NCBI RefSeq assembly: GCF_025398315.1
Contig: NZ_JAODOQ010000001.1
Location: 1 to 64,000, forward strand
Source: Shewanella phaeophyticola
GTDB lineage: Bacteria; Pseudomonadota; Gammaproteobacteria; Enterobacterales; Shewanellaceae
Length of the DNA: 64,000 bases
Direction: 5' to 3'
A program made the translations under genes and the position numbers. Within the stretch, counting starts at the first letter, position 1. Every line of letters starts with the position of its first letter. This document shows positions 50,026-60,262 of the stretch, one piece after another. The notes below the pieces were generated by a model. That model ran no database searches. It had not been told where the DNA came from and was given only the letters and a program-made list of their open reading frames with translations.

Positions 50026-50217
50026 ATCAACCCAAGCGGTGGAGGCTAGGATTCATACTTTATCCGGCGGATATACTGCCTCCTGTTATATCCACTCACC
50101 AAGAAAAATCGATTTTTACATTTAAGAAACAATTACTTATAGTATTATGTTGCTTAAATAAAACAAGGTAATTATAGCATCGGCTTTGATGAAATGAATA
50201 ATACAAGGGAGTGTAAA

Positions 50218-50655
50218 ATGAGATTGTTAGTCTTGGCAGTACTATTGAGTGCGGTGGTTTCGTGTCCTAGCGCAGCTAAAAGAATGAATATTTACGGTGA
50301 AATCCTCGTAACAAACATTACCCCAGAAAGTGGTGCAATGTGGACTCGCGTTAACCATAAAGCGCCAATGTATCCTATTGAACTTGCTAAGGCGCGAATG
50401 GTTGGCTGTACAATATTGTCATTTGATGTTGCTGAATCTGGTAAAGCTGAGAATATTCAAACAGACATTTCAATACCCAATACTAAGATTAGCCAACACG
50501 CAAAAAGTATTGTGAGCCAGTGGCAATGGCAAACTGATCAAACGCCAACCGTGAAAGAAAGTCATGCTGTTCGTCTCGACTTTTGTTTAGGGCTGGAATC
50601 GCTAGAAAAGACTCAGCAAGCTTGTGCAAAACAAGTACAACTTTCATGTGAGTAA
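50218..50655 (+). CDS. Exported TonB C-terminal-like protein
   Basis: The product has 145 residues from ATG 50218 with GGGAG upstream. A signal peptide (LLVLAVLLSAVVSCPSAA) is followed by a TonB_C-like domain: P-MYPIELAKARMVGCTILSF, DVAESGKAENI and the W-x-W of SIVSQWQWQTDQ. No membrane anchor or Pro-rich spacer of a true TonB is present, so it is probably a free periplasmic protein. Cysteines at the end (CLGL, QQACAKQVQLSCE) may form disulfides. Confidence 0.7.
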   Translation: MRLLVLAVLLSAVVSCPSAAKRMNIYGEILVTNITPESGAMWTRVNHKAPMYPIELAKARMVGCTILSFDVAESGKAENIQTDISIPNTKISQHAKSIVSQWQWQTDQTPTVKESHAVRLDFCLGLESLEKTQQACAKQVQLSCE

Positions 50656-50721: not shown

Positions 50722-52180
50722 TTAGCTTTTTGTCACCAGCTCTATCTTAAATTCACTGCCAACGCCGGGTTGGCTGTCTATTTCAATTCTGCATTTTAAT
50801 AAGCCTAATAACTGCCTGACGATGGCGAGCCCGACGCCAAGTTGTGGCAGGCTTTGGTTGGGTTCAAATGACAATGTGGTCATCGACAATTGTTTGAGGG
50901 CGTCGACTTCATGTTTGTGCATGCCGGCGCCGGTGTCGCGCACGGTTAACCACTGTTGGCCATTGTGTTGAGTGTTGATAATTTGAATTTTGCCGCCAGC
51001 GGGTGTGTAGCGCAGCGCGTTATCGACTAAGTTGTTGAGGATGCGGCGCATTAAAGTGGGGTCGGTATAGATTTGTTCAGCATGATTGATGTCAAAATCA
51101 AGCTGTACTCCCAGCTTTTTAGCCCGCGGGGTAAAGGTTTGTTCAATGTCGCTGAGTAATTCAGTTAAGTTTACCTGCTGTAATTGTGCATCGATTTGGC
51201 CGTTTTCTAATGCGGCGAGTTCTAATAACTGGGCGAGCAATTGCTGTAAGGTTTGGCCTGAGTTGGCCGCATATTGAATTAAGGCTTCGTCGCGCTCATC
51301 TTCGGGTAAAATAAGCCAAGTATCGATATAGCCTAATAGCGCGGTAAGTGGCGTTTTTAGGTCATGAGACAGATGCAATAAAAAGTCATGCTTAGCTTGT
51401 TGCTGGCGCTTAACTTGCTGTTGTTGTAACTGGATCTCTTGCAGCAGGTGATTGATGTGATGACTCAGTTGGCTTATCTCTAAACTGCCACGATAACGCT
51501 GTGGTAGCATTAAATTTTCTGACATTGGGTTATCTTTTAGCTCAGTTAAGTCTTGGGCTAGCTTTTGGATCGGACGAGTAAAATAGCGCAATAAAATAAC
51601 AAAGAGCACCAAGGAAAAAATGATCCAAAAACCTATGGTAGCGCCCCAAATTTTAGGTTGGTTTTCGGCGTTGATCAGCGCTTGCCAGCTGTCGTAATCT
51701 TCACCTCCAATAATGACGTACAAATAGCCGCTGTGCAGGCCTTCTGGTGTTACAAGTTTACTGACAGAGAATATCTTTTGCTTATCTTCACCGCGCGGAT
51801 CGGTGCCAAGCACTGGCAGGTTTTCGCCGGCTAAAAACTGCTGAATAGTATTAGTATCAATGCGGTGTTTTTTAATTTTTTCGTCTTTGGCATCATAAGC
51901 AATCACTTTGCCATTAGGGTCTAGAGTATAAATTTCAAAGCTTGGTGCCTAGCAACATAAAATCGTGAAAGGCTTCTTTCAGTGCGGCGTCGGAGGTAAT
52001 ACCTTGAGACAGCAGCGGATTGATATGAGCCATGTGATCGGCCAGTTCACGATGCAGTGATTGCTGTATTTGGTTGCGGCTAAACTCATGATTAAGTTGC
52101 AGCCATTGCCATAAGGCAACAAATAACAGTAATACAACCAGTGTTGCGGCTAGAAATAATCGGTTAAATAAGCGATTCAT
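50722..52180 (-). CDS. Membrane sensor histidine kinase (one frame lesion)
   Basis: The restored protein has 485 residues. An N-terminal helix (LFLAATLVVLLLFVALWQWL), a periplasmic domain, a second helix (about 130-155, IGFWIIFSLVLFVILLRYF), HAMP, then HisKA with the phospho-acceptor His in HDFLLHLSHDLKTPLTALLG and HATPase_c with NLVDNALRYTPAGG and DTGAGM. The frame breaks at 51944-51949: minus-strand GGCACC replaces the expected GG-N-CC of MLLGPSFEIY, one extra base. Overlaps the response-regulator stop by one base. The sensed signal is unknown. Confidence 0.92.
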
Positions 52181-52914
52181 TAGTGGGTTTGCACCTCTGG
52201 TGGTGAAAATTTATAACCTACGCCCCATACTGTTTTAACTAAGTCGTGTTCGGGTGAACACTGCGATAGTTTATTGCGTAATCGATTGATATGGCTGTTT
52301 ACTGTGTGCTCGTAACCGTCGTAGTTGTAACCCCATACGGCCTCGAGTAGTTGCATCCGGCTAAAGACTTGTTGTGGGTGTTTTGCTAAAAACAACAGTA
52401 AGTCAAATTCGCGGGCGGTGAGGGTCAGTGCTTTGTTAAACGCTTTGACTTCGCGGGTACTAGAGTTAATAGTGACACTATTAAATTCAATTTGTTGGGT
52501 TTGTTCTTGCTGGGCTTTACCACGTCTTAATAATGCTTTCACGCGTGCGCGCAGTTCTAACACGCTAAAGGGTTTTACCAGGTAATCGTCGGCTCCGGCC
52601 TCAAGACCTAATACCACATCAGCTTCTGAGTCTTTAGCGGTTAATAGCATTAGCGGGACTTCCTGACCGGCTTGGCGTATTTGCTCACACAACATAATGC
52701 CGTCACCATCGGGGAGCATGCGATCCAATAAAATTAAATCGAGCTTTTTATGTTCAATAATCTGCATGGCTTGCTTTAATGTGGTGGCGTGATCAACTTG
52801 GTAGTTGAGCGCTTTGAGGTTGAGGATAAGTAATTTAGCTAGGTCTTGTTCATCTTCTACCAGCAAAATATGTTGCGGGCAAACATGGCCGTTATGTTTA
52901 ATGGTTCCATTCAT
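52180..52914 (-). CDS. OmpR-family response regulator
   Basis: The product has 244 residues. The receiver domain has ILLVEDEQDLAKLL, the phosphorylated Asp in LILLDRMLPDGDG, LLTAKD and the Lys in DDYLVKPF; the C-terminal winged helix contains LTAREFDLLLFLAKHPQQVFSRMQLLEAVWGYNYDGYEHTVNSHI. It pairs with the histidine kinase just downstream. It lies 83 bp after the lipoprotein with a spondin domain and may be co-transcribed with the two spondin genes. Confidence 0.95.
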   Translation of the reverse strand: MNGTIKHNGHVCPQHILLVEDEQDLAKLLILNLKALNYQVDHATTLKQAMQIIEHKKLDLILLDRMLPDGDGIMLCEQIRQAGQEVPLMLLTAKDSEADVVLGLEAGADDYLVKPFSVLELRARVKALLRRGKAQQEQTQQIEFNSVTINSSTREVKAFNKALTLTAREFDLLLFLAKHPQQVFSRMQLLEAVWGYNYDGYEHTVNSHINRLRNKLSQCSPEHDLVKTVWGVGYKFSPPEVQTH

Positions 52915-52997
52915 GTTGAGTTCCTCAAAGCAAATCCAGTCATTGCATTAACAACTAGACCTGCCTTGAGGCGAATAAATTTCAGTGTGGTGGAAAT

Positions 52998-53717
52998 TTA
53001 TTCAGTGCGCATAATGGTGACAGCGAGTACTGGGTTATCAAAACGGTGCGATGCATCAAGAACTGAGTCATCTAAGCCGTCATACATTGAAATCACCCCT
53101 GGGTGAATATGAACAAAGTCAACATCATCACGCGCGGTGTTAAAGCCTTCGCCGCCATCAGCAGGACCTGGCAGAGTGCCTTTGGCTTCACTGTTTGCCT
53201 CGGTGCCCGCATCGTAGGCCATAAACTTCATTGAGCTTGAGGCGTCTACTTGCATACCTGCAATGCTGTAGCTGTTTATGCCGGTAAAAGCGTCGTTAGT
53301 GTTAACTAGCATGGTCGCTAGGCTAATACTTGCAACGTCTGTTTCATCTAATGTGAGTGTGAGGGTTTCACTTGCGCCAGGCATTAATAAGCCTGCACCG
53401 TTAACGCTGCTAGTCAGCACATCTAATGCGGCGATATCTGCAGTATCGCCACCTTCGGCCATTTTCTCTATGGCTTCGCTTGCCATTTCACCAGCGTTCC
53501 ACAACATGGCATCACTAGCATGACCGGCTAAAATTACCGGAGACATGGGCTGGTTTGCGGTGAGGTTAGTGACGGTAACCGTGAAAGTTTGCATCACTGG
53601 TGCTGCTGGCGTCTCGTCAACGGTGTCATTGTCGTCATCATCACACGCTGTTAATAAGATGGTCGCTGCCAACATGGCCAGTAAACTGGGCTTTAATGTA
53701 AAGTCAGTGGGTTTCAT
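52998..53717 (-). CDS. Spondin-domain lipoprotein
   Basis: The product has 239 residues. GGAGG lies upstream of ATG 53717. The signal peptide ends in the lipobox LLTAC-DDDDND, an acidic +2 region. The mature part has the spondin_N pattern: FTVTVTNLTANQPMSPVILAGH near the start, FTGINSY in the middle, DAGTEANSE and HIHPGVISM near the end. Bacterial spondin-domain proteins are poorly known. It is 38% or so alike by eye in motif order to the next gene upstream, so the two arose by duplication. Confidence 0.82.
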   Translation of the reverse strand: MKPTDFTLKPSLLAMLAATILLTACDDDDNDTVDETPAAPVMQTFTVTVTNLTANQPMSPVILAGHASDAMLWNAGEMASEAIEKMAEGGDTADIAALDVLTSSVNGAGLLMPGASETLTLTLDETDVASISLATMLVNTNDAFTGINSYSIAGMQVDASSSMKFMAYDAGTEANSEAKGTLPGPADGGEGFNTARDDVDFVHIHPGVISMYDGLDDSVLDASHRFDNPVLAVTIMRTE

Positions 53718-53728
53718 GGGCTACCTCC

Positions 53729-54430
53729 TTATTTTACTGTTACCACAACTTTGGCAACAGGGTTCAACCAGCGGTGTACGCGGCTGTCTAGGTCACTCAT
53801 ACCACCAGCAGGATTCATGTCTCCTAGTACGCCAGGGTGAGTATGTACGTTGCTGTTATCAGAACTGTCCATTACGCCTGTACCGTTAGCTCCACCATCG
53901 CCGCCAGGTGCAGCAGGAATACCCGGTACTCCAGACATGCCACCACCATTAATGATTTCATCATTGACTTCGGTGCCAGCATCATACGCATTAACGTACA
54001 TAGTATAAGTGCCCGCTTCTGTTGGGATTTCCCAGCTATCTAACCCAACAAAAGCATCGTTGGTTGGCAATACCATGGCTACAATCGATAAATGGGTGTT
54101 ATCGCCAGTATCAAGCATCACTTCGCTGACACTCATGCCTGCGGCTAGTAAGCCCATTGCGGGGTTGGCTGATGTGACGCCAGCATTACCTGTTACAGCA
54201 GCATCTAAATCGGCAATATCGCCACCCTCAGCCATTTTTTGTAAAGCTGCCGAGGCTTCAGTACCTACTTGAAACAGGTGGCTGTCAGCGTCGTGAGCTG
54301 CGATCAAAAGAGGGGTAAAGTGATTTCCGTGGGTTAAATTGGTCACGCTAACTTCAATATCTGCAGCTAAAGTTGGAAGGCTAAATAATCCAGCAGCCAT
54401 AAGACTTGCAGTCACTAATGTACGTTTCAT
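53729..54430 (-). CDS. Exported spondin-domain protein
   Basis: The product has 233 residues from ATG 54430 with AAGGAG upstream; the frame extends to 54457 without a signal. The signal peptide (TLVTASLMAAGLFSLPTLAAD) has no lipobox Cys. The mature part follows the spondin_N order: VTNLTHGNHFTPLLIAAHDA, NDAFVGLDSWEIP, NAYDAGTEVNDE and NVHTHPGVLGD, where the H-x-H-P-G motif might bind a metal. A Gly/Pro/Ala-rich loop (GIPAAPGGDGGANG) is inserted before it. First gene of the spondin-spondin-regulator-kinase run; 11 bp separate the two spondin genes. Confidence 0.84.
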   Translation of the reverse strand: MKRTLVTASLMAAGLFSLPTLAADIEVSVTNLTHGNHFTPLLIAAHDADSHLFQVGTEASAALQKMAEGGDIADLDAAVTGNAGVTSANPAMGLLAAGMSVSEVMLDTGDNTHLSIVAMVLPTNDAFVGLDSWEIPTEAGTYTMYVNAYDAGTEVNDEIINGGGMSGVPGIPAAPGGDGGANGTGVMDSSDNSNVHTHPGVLGDMNPAGGMSDLDSRVHRWLNPVAKVVVTVK

Positions 54431-54577
54431 AACCGAGCTCCTTTTGTTTAATTGCATTCAGTATGCGTTAGGAGTTTCACCAGGTTATTGCCAAATTATC
54501 ACAAAAGTTTAACATCGTAGCGGCTTGATAAAAGCGTGTGATAAAGTGTGCTTAAACAACTAAAAATAGTAGATATG

Positions 54578-58959: not shown

Positions 58960-60262
58960 TTACGCTTTACCTTGCTCACGTGCAATGGCGCGGTAAGCAA
59001 TATCGGTACGGAAATAAACGTCATCCCAATGGATGGCATCCACTAAAGCGTAAGCTGCTTGTTGGGCTTCAGTTACCGTGTTACCTAATGCGGTAGCACA
59101 TAATACACGGCCGCCATTTGTCACAACGTGGCCGTCTTTCATCTCGGTGCCGGCATGGAACACTTTGCCGTTTACATCGCCAAGGGTTAAGCCGTCAATC
59201 ACATCGCCTTTATTGTAGGTATCTGGATAACCGCCTGCGGCCATCACCACACCTACGGCTGCACGTGAGTCAAACTCTGCGGTGACTTTGTCTAATTCAC
59301 CACGAGTTGCAGCAAGACAAAGCTCAACAATGTCAGACTGTAAACGCATCATGATTGGCTGGGTTTCTGGGTCGCCAAAGCGGCAGTTGTATTCAAGTAC
59401 TTTAGCGCTGCCATCTGGTGCAATCATTAAACCTGCGTACAAAAAGCCGGTGTAAACGTTGCCTTCAGCTGCCATGCCATCAACGGTTGGGCGGATAACA
59501 TTGGCTATCGTCCAGTCGTGCACCGTTTGCGTTACAACCGGCGCAGGAGAGTATGCACCCATGCCGCCAGTGTTAGAGCCGTAATCGCCATTGTCGCGGG
59601 CTTTATGGTCTTGGCTGGTGGCCATGGCAAGAATGTTTTTGCCGTCAACCATTACGATAAAGCTGGCTTCTTCGCCTTTTAAAAACTCTTCAATAACCAC
59701 GCGTGAACCCGCATCGCCAAATTTATTACCGGCAAGCATGTCATCAATAGCGGCATCGGCCTGGACTTGATCGGCGGCGATAATCACGCCTTTACCGGCA
59801 GCTAATCCATCGGCTTTAATCACGACAGGAAAGCCCGTTTTAGCCGTTAATGCTGCCGCATAAGCTTTAGCTGGTGCAATCTCAGTGAAGTTTGAGTAGT
59901 CAGCCGTTGGAATATTGTGTCGTGCTAAAAAGTCTTTAGTGAAGGCTTTTGACGATTCAAGCTGTGCTGCGCCTTTTGTTGTAGTCAAAAATAGGTAAAC
60001 TGGCAGCATTAAAAGCATCGACAACGCCTAATGACAATGGCACTTCAGGGCCGACAATGGTTAGTTCAATCTTGTTGTCTTGAGCAAACTTAACTAAATC
60101 TGCGATAGCTTCAACTTGAATAGCCACGTTTTGTAATTTTGGCTCTAAAGAGGTTCCTGCATTACCAGGTGCAACAAACACTTTTGTGACTTGCGCAGAC
60201 TGAGCAGCTTTCCAAGCTAATGCATGTTCACGACCGCCGCCACCAATGATAAGTACCTGCAT
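58960..60262 (-). CDS. purD: Phosphoribosylamine-glycine ligase (one frame lesion)
   Basis: PurD joins glycine to phosphoribosylamine, step 2 of purine synthesis. MQVLIIGGGGREHALAWK, the ATP-grasp part with VVIKADGLAAGKGVI and EEFLKGEEASFIVMVDG, and EYNCRFGDPETQ are diagnostic. The frame breaks at 59981-59987, where the family reads LPIFGPTKGAAQLESSKAF: minus-strand GACTACA stands in place of a six-base Gly-Pro codon pair. Raw pieces end at 59957 and start at 60024. Restored length is 433 residues. It follows purH with an intrinsic terminator in between. Confidence 0.96.

Follow-up and report, generated by a model that had tools for sequence, protein, structure and literature searches.

What do bacteria use exported spondin-domain proteins for, and is the two-component system encoded beside them dedicated to them? 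This question is raised by a locus of Shewanella phaeophyticola, located at positions 50,722 to 54,430 of a 64,000-nucleotide stretch of contig NZ_JAODOQ010000001.1 (the window, by which we mean the whole stretch that was analysed). Two spondin genes, S1 and S2, are followed here by genes for a response regulator (RR) and a sensor histidine kinase (HK). The literature that we found gives no function for bacterial spondin domains. We show below that the four-gene unit S1-S2-RR-HK is real and widespread; besides the Gammaproteobacteria, across which it occurs, it is present in one other group of the phylum. We consider it rather probable that it forms a dedicated two-component system, which has the spondin pair as its conserved output and responds to oxidative damage in the envelope. 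The genes of the window locus are the following (aa, amino acids; TM, transmembrane):

53729..54457, minus strand: S1, soluble exported spondin-domain protein (NF038123 profile; likely start at 54430, MKRTLV...; signal peptide by inspection)
52998..53717, minus strand: S2, spondin-domain lipoprotein with LLTAC lipobox (NF038123 profile; lipobox Cys in aligned orthologues)
52180..52914, minus strand: RR, OmpR/PhoB-type response regulator of spondin loci (Pfam domains, tree, phylogenetic profile, pocket residues)
51935..52180, minus strand: N-terminal part of the sensor kinase, 81 aa, with a TM helix and the start of the periplasmic domain (tblastn to intact relatives; frame ends early)
50722..51906, minus strand: C-terminal part of the sensor kinase, 394 aa, in another frame, with the remainder of the sensor domain, TM, HisKA and HATPase_c (profiles, tblastn)

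Coordinates and profiles bear out the gene order S1, S2, RR, kinase on the minus strand as given in the original prediction, including the gaps of 11 bp (S1-S2) and 83 bp (S2-RR) and the kinase start codon that overlaps the RR stop by one base. S1 and S2 score 197.5 and 182.7 bits on NCBIfam NF038123 (cut-off 40) and 46.7 and 32.8 bits on Pfam Spond_N (PF06468; cut-off 24). The RR carries Response_reg and Trans_reg_C domains and has an intact acidic pocket (E20, D21, D64, T92, K114), and HisKA and HATPase_c were identified in the kinase.

Of the 60 relatives examined, own genome included, 35 have a match to NF038123, as do 62 of 369 genomes drawn from the class and 32 of 398 drawn from the phylum. 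The RR is the gene directly after the spondins (+1) at 141 of 198 loci and lies at position -2, in the permuted order RR-HK-spondin, at 12 of 187; its share at any other position is at most 2.2%. This recurring spondin-RR association is far beyond chance and answers the neighbourhood comparison that had been proposed as a check. The RR immediately follows the spondin pair at 31 of 35 loci from the relatives (counting the window), at 71 of 74 from named genomes, which were picked by similarity to S1, at 11 of 18 from the class draw and at all 17 new loci from the phylum draw. For the class draw, 60 regions were fetched, leaving out matches on contig edges or fragments (e.g. G135, G272, G287, G314, G111, G215, G140:C57 and one of two matches in G315, the second); the phylum draw contributed 20 new regions, with G650 left out. 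Some species occur in both the named and the unnamed set (e.g. loci L035 and L099), and the loci are hence not independent. The nearest named loci belong to Shewanella (S. frigidimarina, S. saliphila; S1 identity 95-96%). Single spondins in the class draw have an RR-HK pair downstream (6/42) or upstream (9/42) or no two-component gene nearby (21/42). Pairs that lack the RR are followed by unrelated genes, e.g. those for a peptide-chain release factor and a lysyl-type tRNA synthetase or for Ham1 and HemN-type proteins, and in genome G036 the RR-HK pair lies at a distance from the spondin pair.

The regulators of these loci form one lineage. Of the 96 RRs placed in a tree, 77 that are linked to spondins and a divergent RR beside the spondin pair of locus L155 constitute a single clade (SH-aLRT branch support 97), which spans the downstream, upstream and single-spondin arrangements and excludes 11 paralogues from the own genome and seven unrelated RRs from the loci. 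Among 59 relatives, an RR orthologue is present in 31 of the 34 genomes with spondins and in none of the 25 genomes without them. The kinase was found in 27 of the 59, 26 of which have spondins; the exception, G051, carries the kinase at a contig edge.

A promoter element accompanies this lineage. It lies upstream of S1 and consists of tandem GTGATA half-sites that recur every 11 bp and are followed by a -10-like CATACT. In the window it comprises two parts:

54477..54513, minus strand: predicted RR binding region with four half-sites 11 bp apart (GTTA, GTGA, GCAA, GTGA), position weight matrix (PWM) score 29.6
54460..54465, minus strand: -10-like hexamer CATACT, 15 bp past the start of the last half-site, placed by the spacing in aligned loci

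The element was recovered by unsupervised expectation maximization from the 200 bp upstream of the first spondin at 79 divergent module loci chosen from 139, with a log-likelihood of 817.5 compared to 67.0 and 67.7 in shuffles (width 20). The longer motif model reads ttGTgATA.atTTGTGATAatTtcGTGAta.t...GtGA.aTtt......cAtacT. Half-sites 1, 2, 3 and 4 agree with GTGA in at least three letters in 74, 78, 61 and 56 of the 79 loci, respectively, and the A (position 2) and the T (position 6) of the -10-like hexamer are both found at this spacing in 59 of the 79. The 11-bp step is close to one turn of the DNA helix, as expected for tandem half-sites of OmpR/PhoB regulators. The window site scores 29.6, while the 1,098 upstream regions used as controls have their 99th percentile at 5.4. 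The 99% null level is exceeded by 139 of 140 module promoters, by all ten promoters of spondins located behind RR-HK and by 29 of 52 other spondin promoters. When the model was trained outside Shewanella, all 52 Shewanella loci exceeded the 99th percentile of the controls, and 60 of 63 did so in the reverse experiment. A few control regions reach the scores of true sites, with maxima of 30.9 and 22.2.

The element also follows the regulator in trans. We considered 32 genomes in which the spondin does not adjoin the RR, using a motif cut-off of 12.4 bits (99.9% null), an RR presence defined by the gap between 278.6 and 234 bits and a tally by hand; G411 was left out because its RR adjoins. Motif and RR occurred together in 14 genomes, neither in 14, the motif only in three and the RR only in one, and motif presence thus predicts an RR orthologue elsewhere in the genome (Fisher p = 1.8e-5). 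Two of the three motif-only genomes can be accounted for, since the contig of G263 breaks off behind S1 and a diverged RR adjoins the pair in G405; the third is G190. In addition, the element precedes the RR of several unlinked RR-HK pairs (L271, L272, L274, L276, L280, L283). Together with the neighbourhood and the RR clade and profile, the element in trans strongly supports the earlier idea of a self-contained signalling unit, and the direction supported is that from the regulator to the spondin promoter.

Which other genes carry the element bears on the signal. A search of 64 RR-positive genomes with an exact three-half-site pattern returned 27 matches in 22 genomes compared to three for the reversed control. 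Of these, 20 matches (19 sites) fall at spondin promoters and seven elsewhere. Four of the seven precede methionine-sulfoxide-reductase (Msr) genes and one a catalase-like gene:

G236: operon of redoxin, Oxidored_molyb and Ferric_reduct genes directly after RR-HK, read as MsrPQ with a thioredoxin-like partner
G407 (two sites): exported MsrB with DUF1223; MsrAB lipoprotein
G276: exported MsrAB, divergent from RR-HK
G036: catalase-like protein with cytochrome b561
G276 and G227: two exported proteins without Pfam match

Furthermore, MsrAB adjoins the module with an element of its own in L213 (score 20.3) and L232 (30.0). A looser pattern applied to 51 genomes gave 19 matches, 15 of them at spondin promoters, compared to four for the reversed control; the other four comprise one catalase-like gene, one YncE-like gene and two sites without evident target.

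Two groups of targets merit a separate remark. The catalase-like protein L306:2587-4184 (plus strand) has an N-terminal hydrophobic segment and is followed by a cytochrome b561; its element scores 29.0, and a homologue is present in the module locus L170. Two small exported proteins without Pfam match, L304:3362-3718 (minus strand, genome G276) and L312:1939-2346 (plus strand, genome G321), are preceded by elements scoring 28.8 and 28.1 and are alike by eye (GPVI[YF]VTSQGLYYDSI ... GHLGGRWW). They possibly represent a new regulon member.

These data are consistent with the following model. An oxidant in the envelope would activate the kinase and, through it, the RR, which would switch on the spondin operon. 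The RR may bind the tandem 11-bp GTGATA half-sites upstream of S1, for which 54477-54513 is the region predicted from the sequence, and would activate transcription in the manner of PhoB-type regulators. One promoter might drive the spondins, the RR and the kinase, which would amount to positive autoregulation, and in some lineages msr genes would have joined the regulon. S1, in soluble form, and S2, anchored by its lipid, would be the exported effectors, with C2-like domains that probably bind metal.

Several observations weigh against this model. In Shewanella, the sole non-spondin target found was the YncE-like gene in one genome, and no element was seen before msr genes; the oxidative link therefore rests on other lineages. 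Within the own genome, a looser pattern matched seven times compared to 22 times for its reversed control, and the seven do not include the degenerate site of the window. With the exact pattern, no more than 22 of the 64 genomes yield a site. No element faces the divergent MsrAB neighbours at L102, L113, L129 and L143, the RR-HK pairs L273, L277, L278, L281, L282 and L285 have no motif of their own, and two motif matches in G040 lack an evident target. Finally, spondins occur without RR or motif (e.g. in G041, G045 and G057), and spondin function therefore does not need this system.

Comparison with characterized systems puts the proposed envelope oxidative-damage response in context. In its working, HprSR-msrPQ of Escherichia coli appears by analogy to be the closest known system. 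According to PMC9302797, HprSR controls hiuH-msrPQ and CusSR induces msrPQ on copper; both place periplasmic methionine-sulfoxide repair under OmpR-type two-component control, as is proposed here for some lineages. The redoxin/MsrP-like/MsrQ-like operon of G236, with its element directly after RR-HK, resembles this arrangement. The present system differs from HprSR in its conserved output, the spondin pair, and in its four 11-bp half-sites of another sequence, and the window RR reaches only 149.4 bits on the HprR model (cut-off 353), i.e. it is not a member. The best listed model for the RR is PhoB (222.1 bits), and the kinase core best matches PhoR; however, both lie below the cut-offs, the RR with 222.1 compared to 296.2 and the kinase with 146.6 compared to 334.2 (C-terminal kinase part only). 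With scores below the equivalog cut-offs, we rejected membership in either PhoBR or HprSR. The Pho box, CTGTCAT, resembles the present element in that half-sites are repeated in tandem every 11 bp ahead of a -10-like hexamer, whereas the half-site here is GTGATA and no phosphate genes are among the targets found.

As to the unit itself, a row of two Spondin_N genes, an OmpR-family regulator and a histidine kinase has been depicted beside an L-amino-acid oxidase gene in Pseudoalteromonas luteoviolacea (PMC6316408). In the available part of that paper this is a side remark on one species (one sentence and the legend of Figure 8), in which no generality, promoter element, regulon or function is proposed. 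We found no published account of the generality, promoter element or regulon of the unit, and the element appears to be new, in the literature searched, with subscription papers outside that search.

The spondins themselves show a clear structural affinity. The AlphaFold2 model of S1 (mean pLDDT confidence 88.0) has the F-spondin fold, a C2 variant, and a fold search placed the F-spondin domain of mindin (3d34, Z 17.9) and that of F-spondin (3q13, Z 15.6) well ahead of the next row (5.9). After realignment of 993 PDB chains to S1, the two F-spondin entries alone stood clear (3d34: 182 aligned residues, root-mean-square deviation 3.6, 19% identity; 3q13: 185 residues, 4.8, 16%). A DAGT motif is common to the mindin/F-spondin domains and the bacterial spondins, but the latter are single exported domains and possess invariant H-x-H and HRWLNP segments of their own. 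S2 matches S1 with a profile-profile probability of 100, and all 42 second-position spondins fall into one clade (SH-aLRT 99), which supports the assumed duplication; S2 thus appears to have arisen once. All 61 aligned orthologues of S2 have the lipobox Cys, and apart from it S1 and S2 are essentially Cys-free. Both spondins of the window carry the H-x-H-P-G and DAGTE motifs ascribed to them earlier, but across the alignments H-x-H is kept by S1 only (H205 and H207, 71/71) and the following P is R in 40 of 71 sequences.

A primary role of metal is the alternative that survives best, and we regard it as possible, if not likely. Copper, calcium or a similar metal would be both signal and cargo, the spondins would act as buffers at H-x-H and D-x-G-T-E, and Msr induction would be secondary, for which the copper response of CusSR-msrPQ cited above provides a precedent. 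S1 has invariant His, Asp and Glu residues (H205, H207, D159, E163, N133, D134), and the F-spondin domain entry 3q13 is titled Ca2+-binding. In S2, however, only the second His is kept (61/61) and the first is found in merely 17 of 61 sequences. The seven non-spondin sites include no metal transport or metallochaperone gene, and the arsR/ArsP site of the own genome is weak (16.8) and stems from a search without enrichment.

Alternatively, the spondins could be part of the sensor. In such a four-component sensor, S1 and S2 would gate the kinase by attaching to its periplasmic domain, in a way comparable to the accessory proteins CpxP with CpxA and ZraP with ZraS. The kinase and the spondins share most of their phylogenetic profile (26 of 27 kinase genomes have spondins), the products of both face the periplasm, and the sensor region of the kinase (38 members) matches no Pfam sensor family; the structure model of the kinase has a pLDDT of 83.2 and a template-modelling score (pTM) of 0.49. 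The pattern of gene loss speaks against such an arrangement and makes it unlikely. No kinase match (E<=1e-35) was obtained in five of 24 same-genus relatives with spondins, which retain both spondins and the RR, and parsimony requires four changes for kinase loss, of which well-supported branches force at least two. D21 and D64 are kept in all 139 module RRs with a neighbouring kinase, whereas in the RRs without one D21 is lost in 13 of 13 and D64 in eight of 13, with Glu in its place in six RRs, Thr in one and no residue in another. This count excludes three RRs from outside the module (L121_2, L132_4, L148_9), which show 12-22% identity over the DNA-binding domain. The promoters of kinase-less loci still score 21 to 33 (eight loci listed). 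Since kinase and pocket are lost while spondins and promoter boxes persist, the link from RR to spondins outlives phosphorylation control. In addition, there are spondin loci without any RR orthologue. We thus found no positive evidence for the initial suggestion that the kinase senses the state of the spondins; it is the most dispensable gene of the unit. The kinase-less lineages that retain regulator, spondins and boxes provide a natural experiment on how an RR gains independence from phosphorylation.

In two RRs the receiver itself is degraded. The receivers of L155:7907-8683 and L221:7501-8247 share 21% and 30% identity with that of the window, the DNA-binding domains are conserved (57% and 56%), and the adjoining spondin pairs keep the promoter element.

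Within the proposed oxidative-damage response, the spondins might be redox sentinels, in which Met residues are oxidized first and repaired by co-regulated Msr, and the kinase would read damage to the envelope from the oxidation state of the spondins. We regard this as distinctly doubtful. The Met content of the spondins (3.2% and 3.4%) is in modest excess of the 2.2% in other open reading frames, and one Met is conserved in each protein (M128 in 71/71 S1 and M136 in 61/61 S2 sequences). If true, the animal spondin fold would have a counterpart in bacteria that acts in oxidative-stress sensing.

Very unlikely, in our view, is a role as surface or host-interaction proteins (adhesive or lectin-like as mindin) under a general environmental two-component system: the mindin F-spondin domain is the nearest solved fold (Z 17.9) and the proteins are exported and lipid-anchored, but the nameable co-regulated genes encode repair and redox enzymes, and, judging by record titles, some carriers are bacteria from sediments or the deep sea or are metagenome bins. 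That the genes are chance or frozen neighbours without functional link, as the conservation of the flanking hemE within Shewanella might hint, has practically no probability and was rejected on the RR position counts, the RR clade, the phylogenetic profile and the element in trans, as the association persists when the gene order is permuted, when the loci are unlinked and when the flanks differ, and the promoter element mirrors it. One regulator lineage, its promoter element and methionine-sulfoxide repair genes together offer a concrete hypothesis and a reporter for bacterial spondins.

The window kinase is divided, which the original prediction missed, into two frames of 81 aa and 394 aa, with a one-base insertion at 51946, seen relative to 10 of 10 aligned relatives (11 were given; L108 gave no alignment). 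The break is probably a sequencing error. The purD gene of the same window (58960-60262, minus strand) also consists of two overlapping frames, 59957-60262 (101 aa) and 58960-60024 (354 aa). Relative to L074-L076 it has one extra base at 59982/59983, which suggests residual indel errors in this assembly. As purD is likewise split, the genome completeness score is 90.97% and the RR pocket is intact, unlike in the 13 of 13 kinase-less RRs, a kinase pseudogene is less likely than a sequence error. A programmed frameshift was considered since the break comes after a similar length in the kinases of the window (81+394 aa) and of L108 (83+418 aa). However, the L108 break is an in-frame stop at a different residue and the splits of L060, L077 and L091 lie elsewhere; with no common break site, this explanation was rejected.

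Convergent with the kinase, the window encodes a short exported protein with a TonB_C domain (50194-50655, plus strand), near relatives of which were found among the clustered loci only in L074 and L075.

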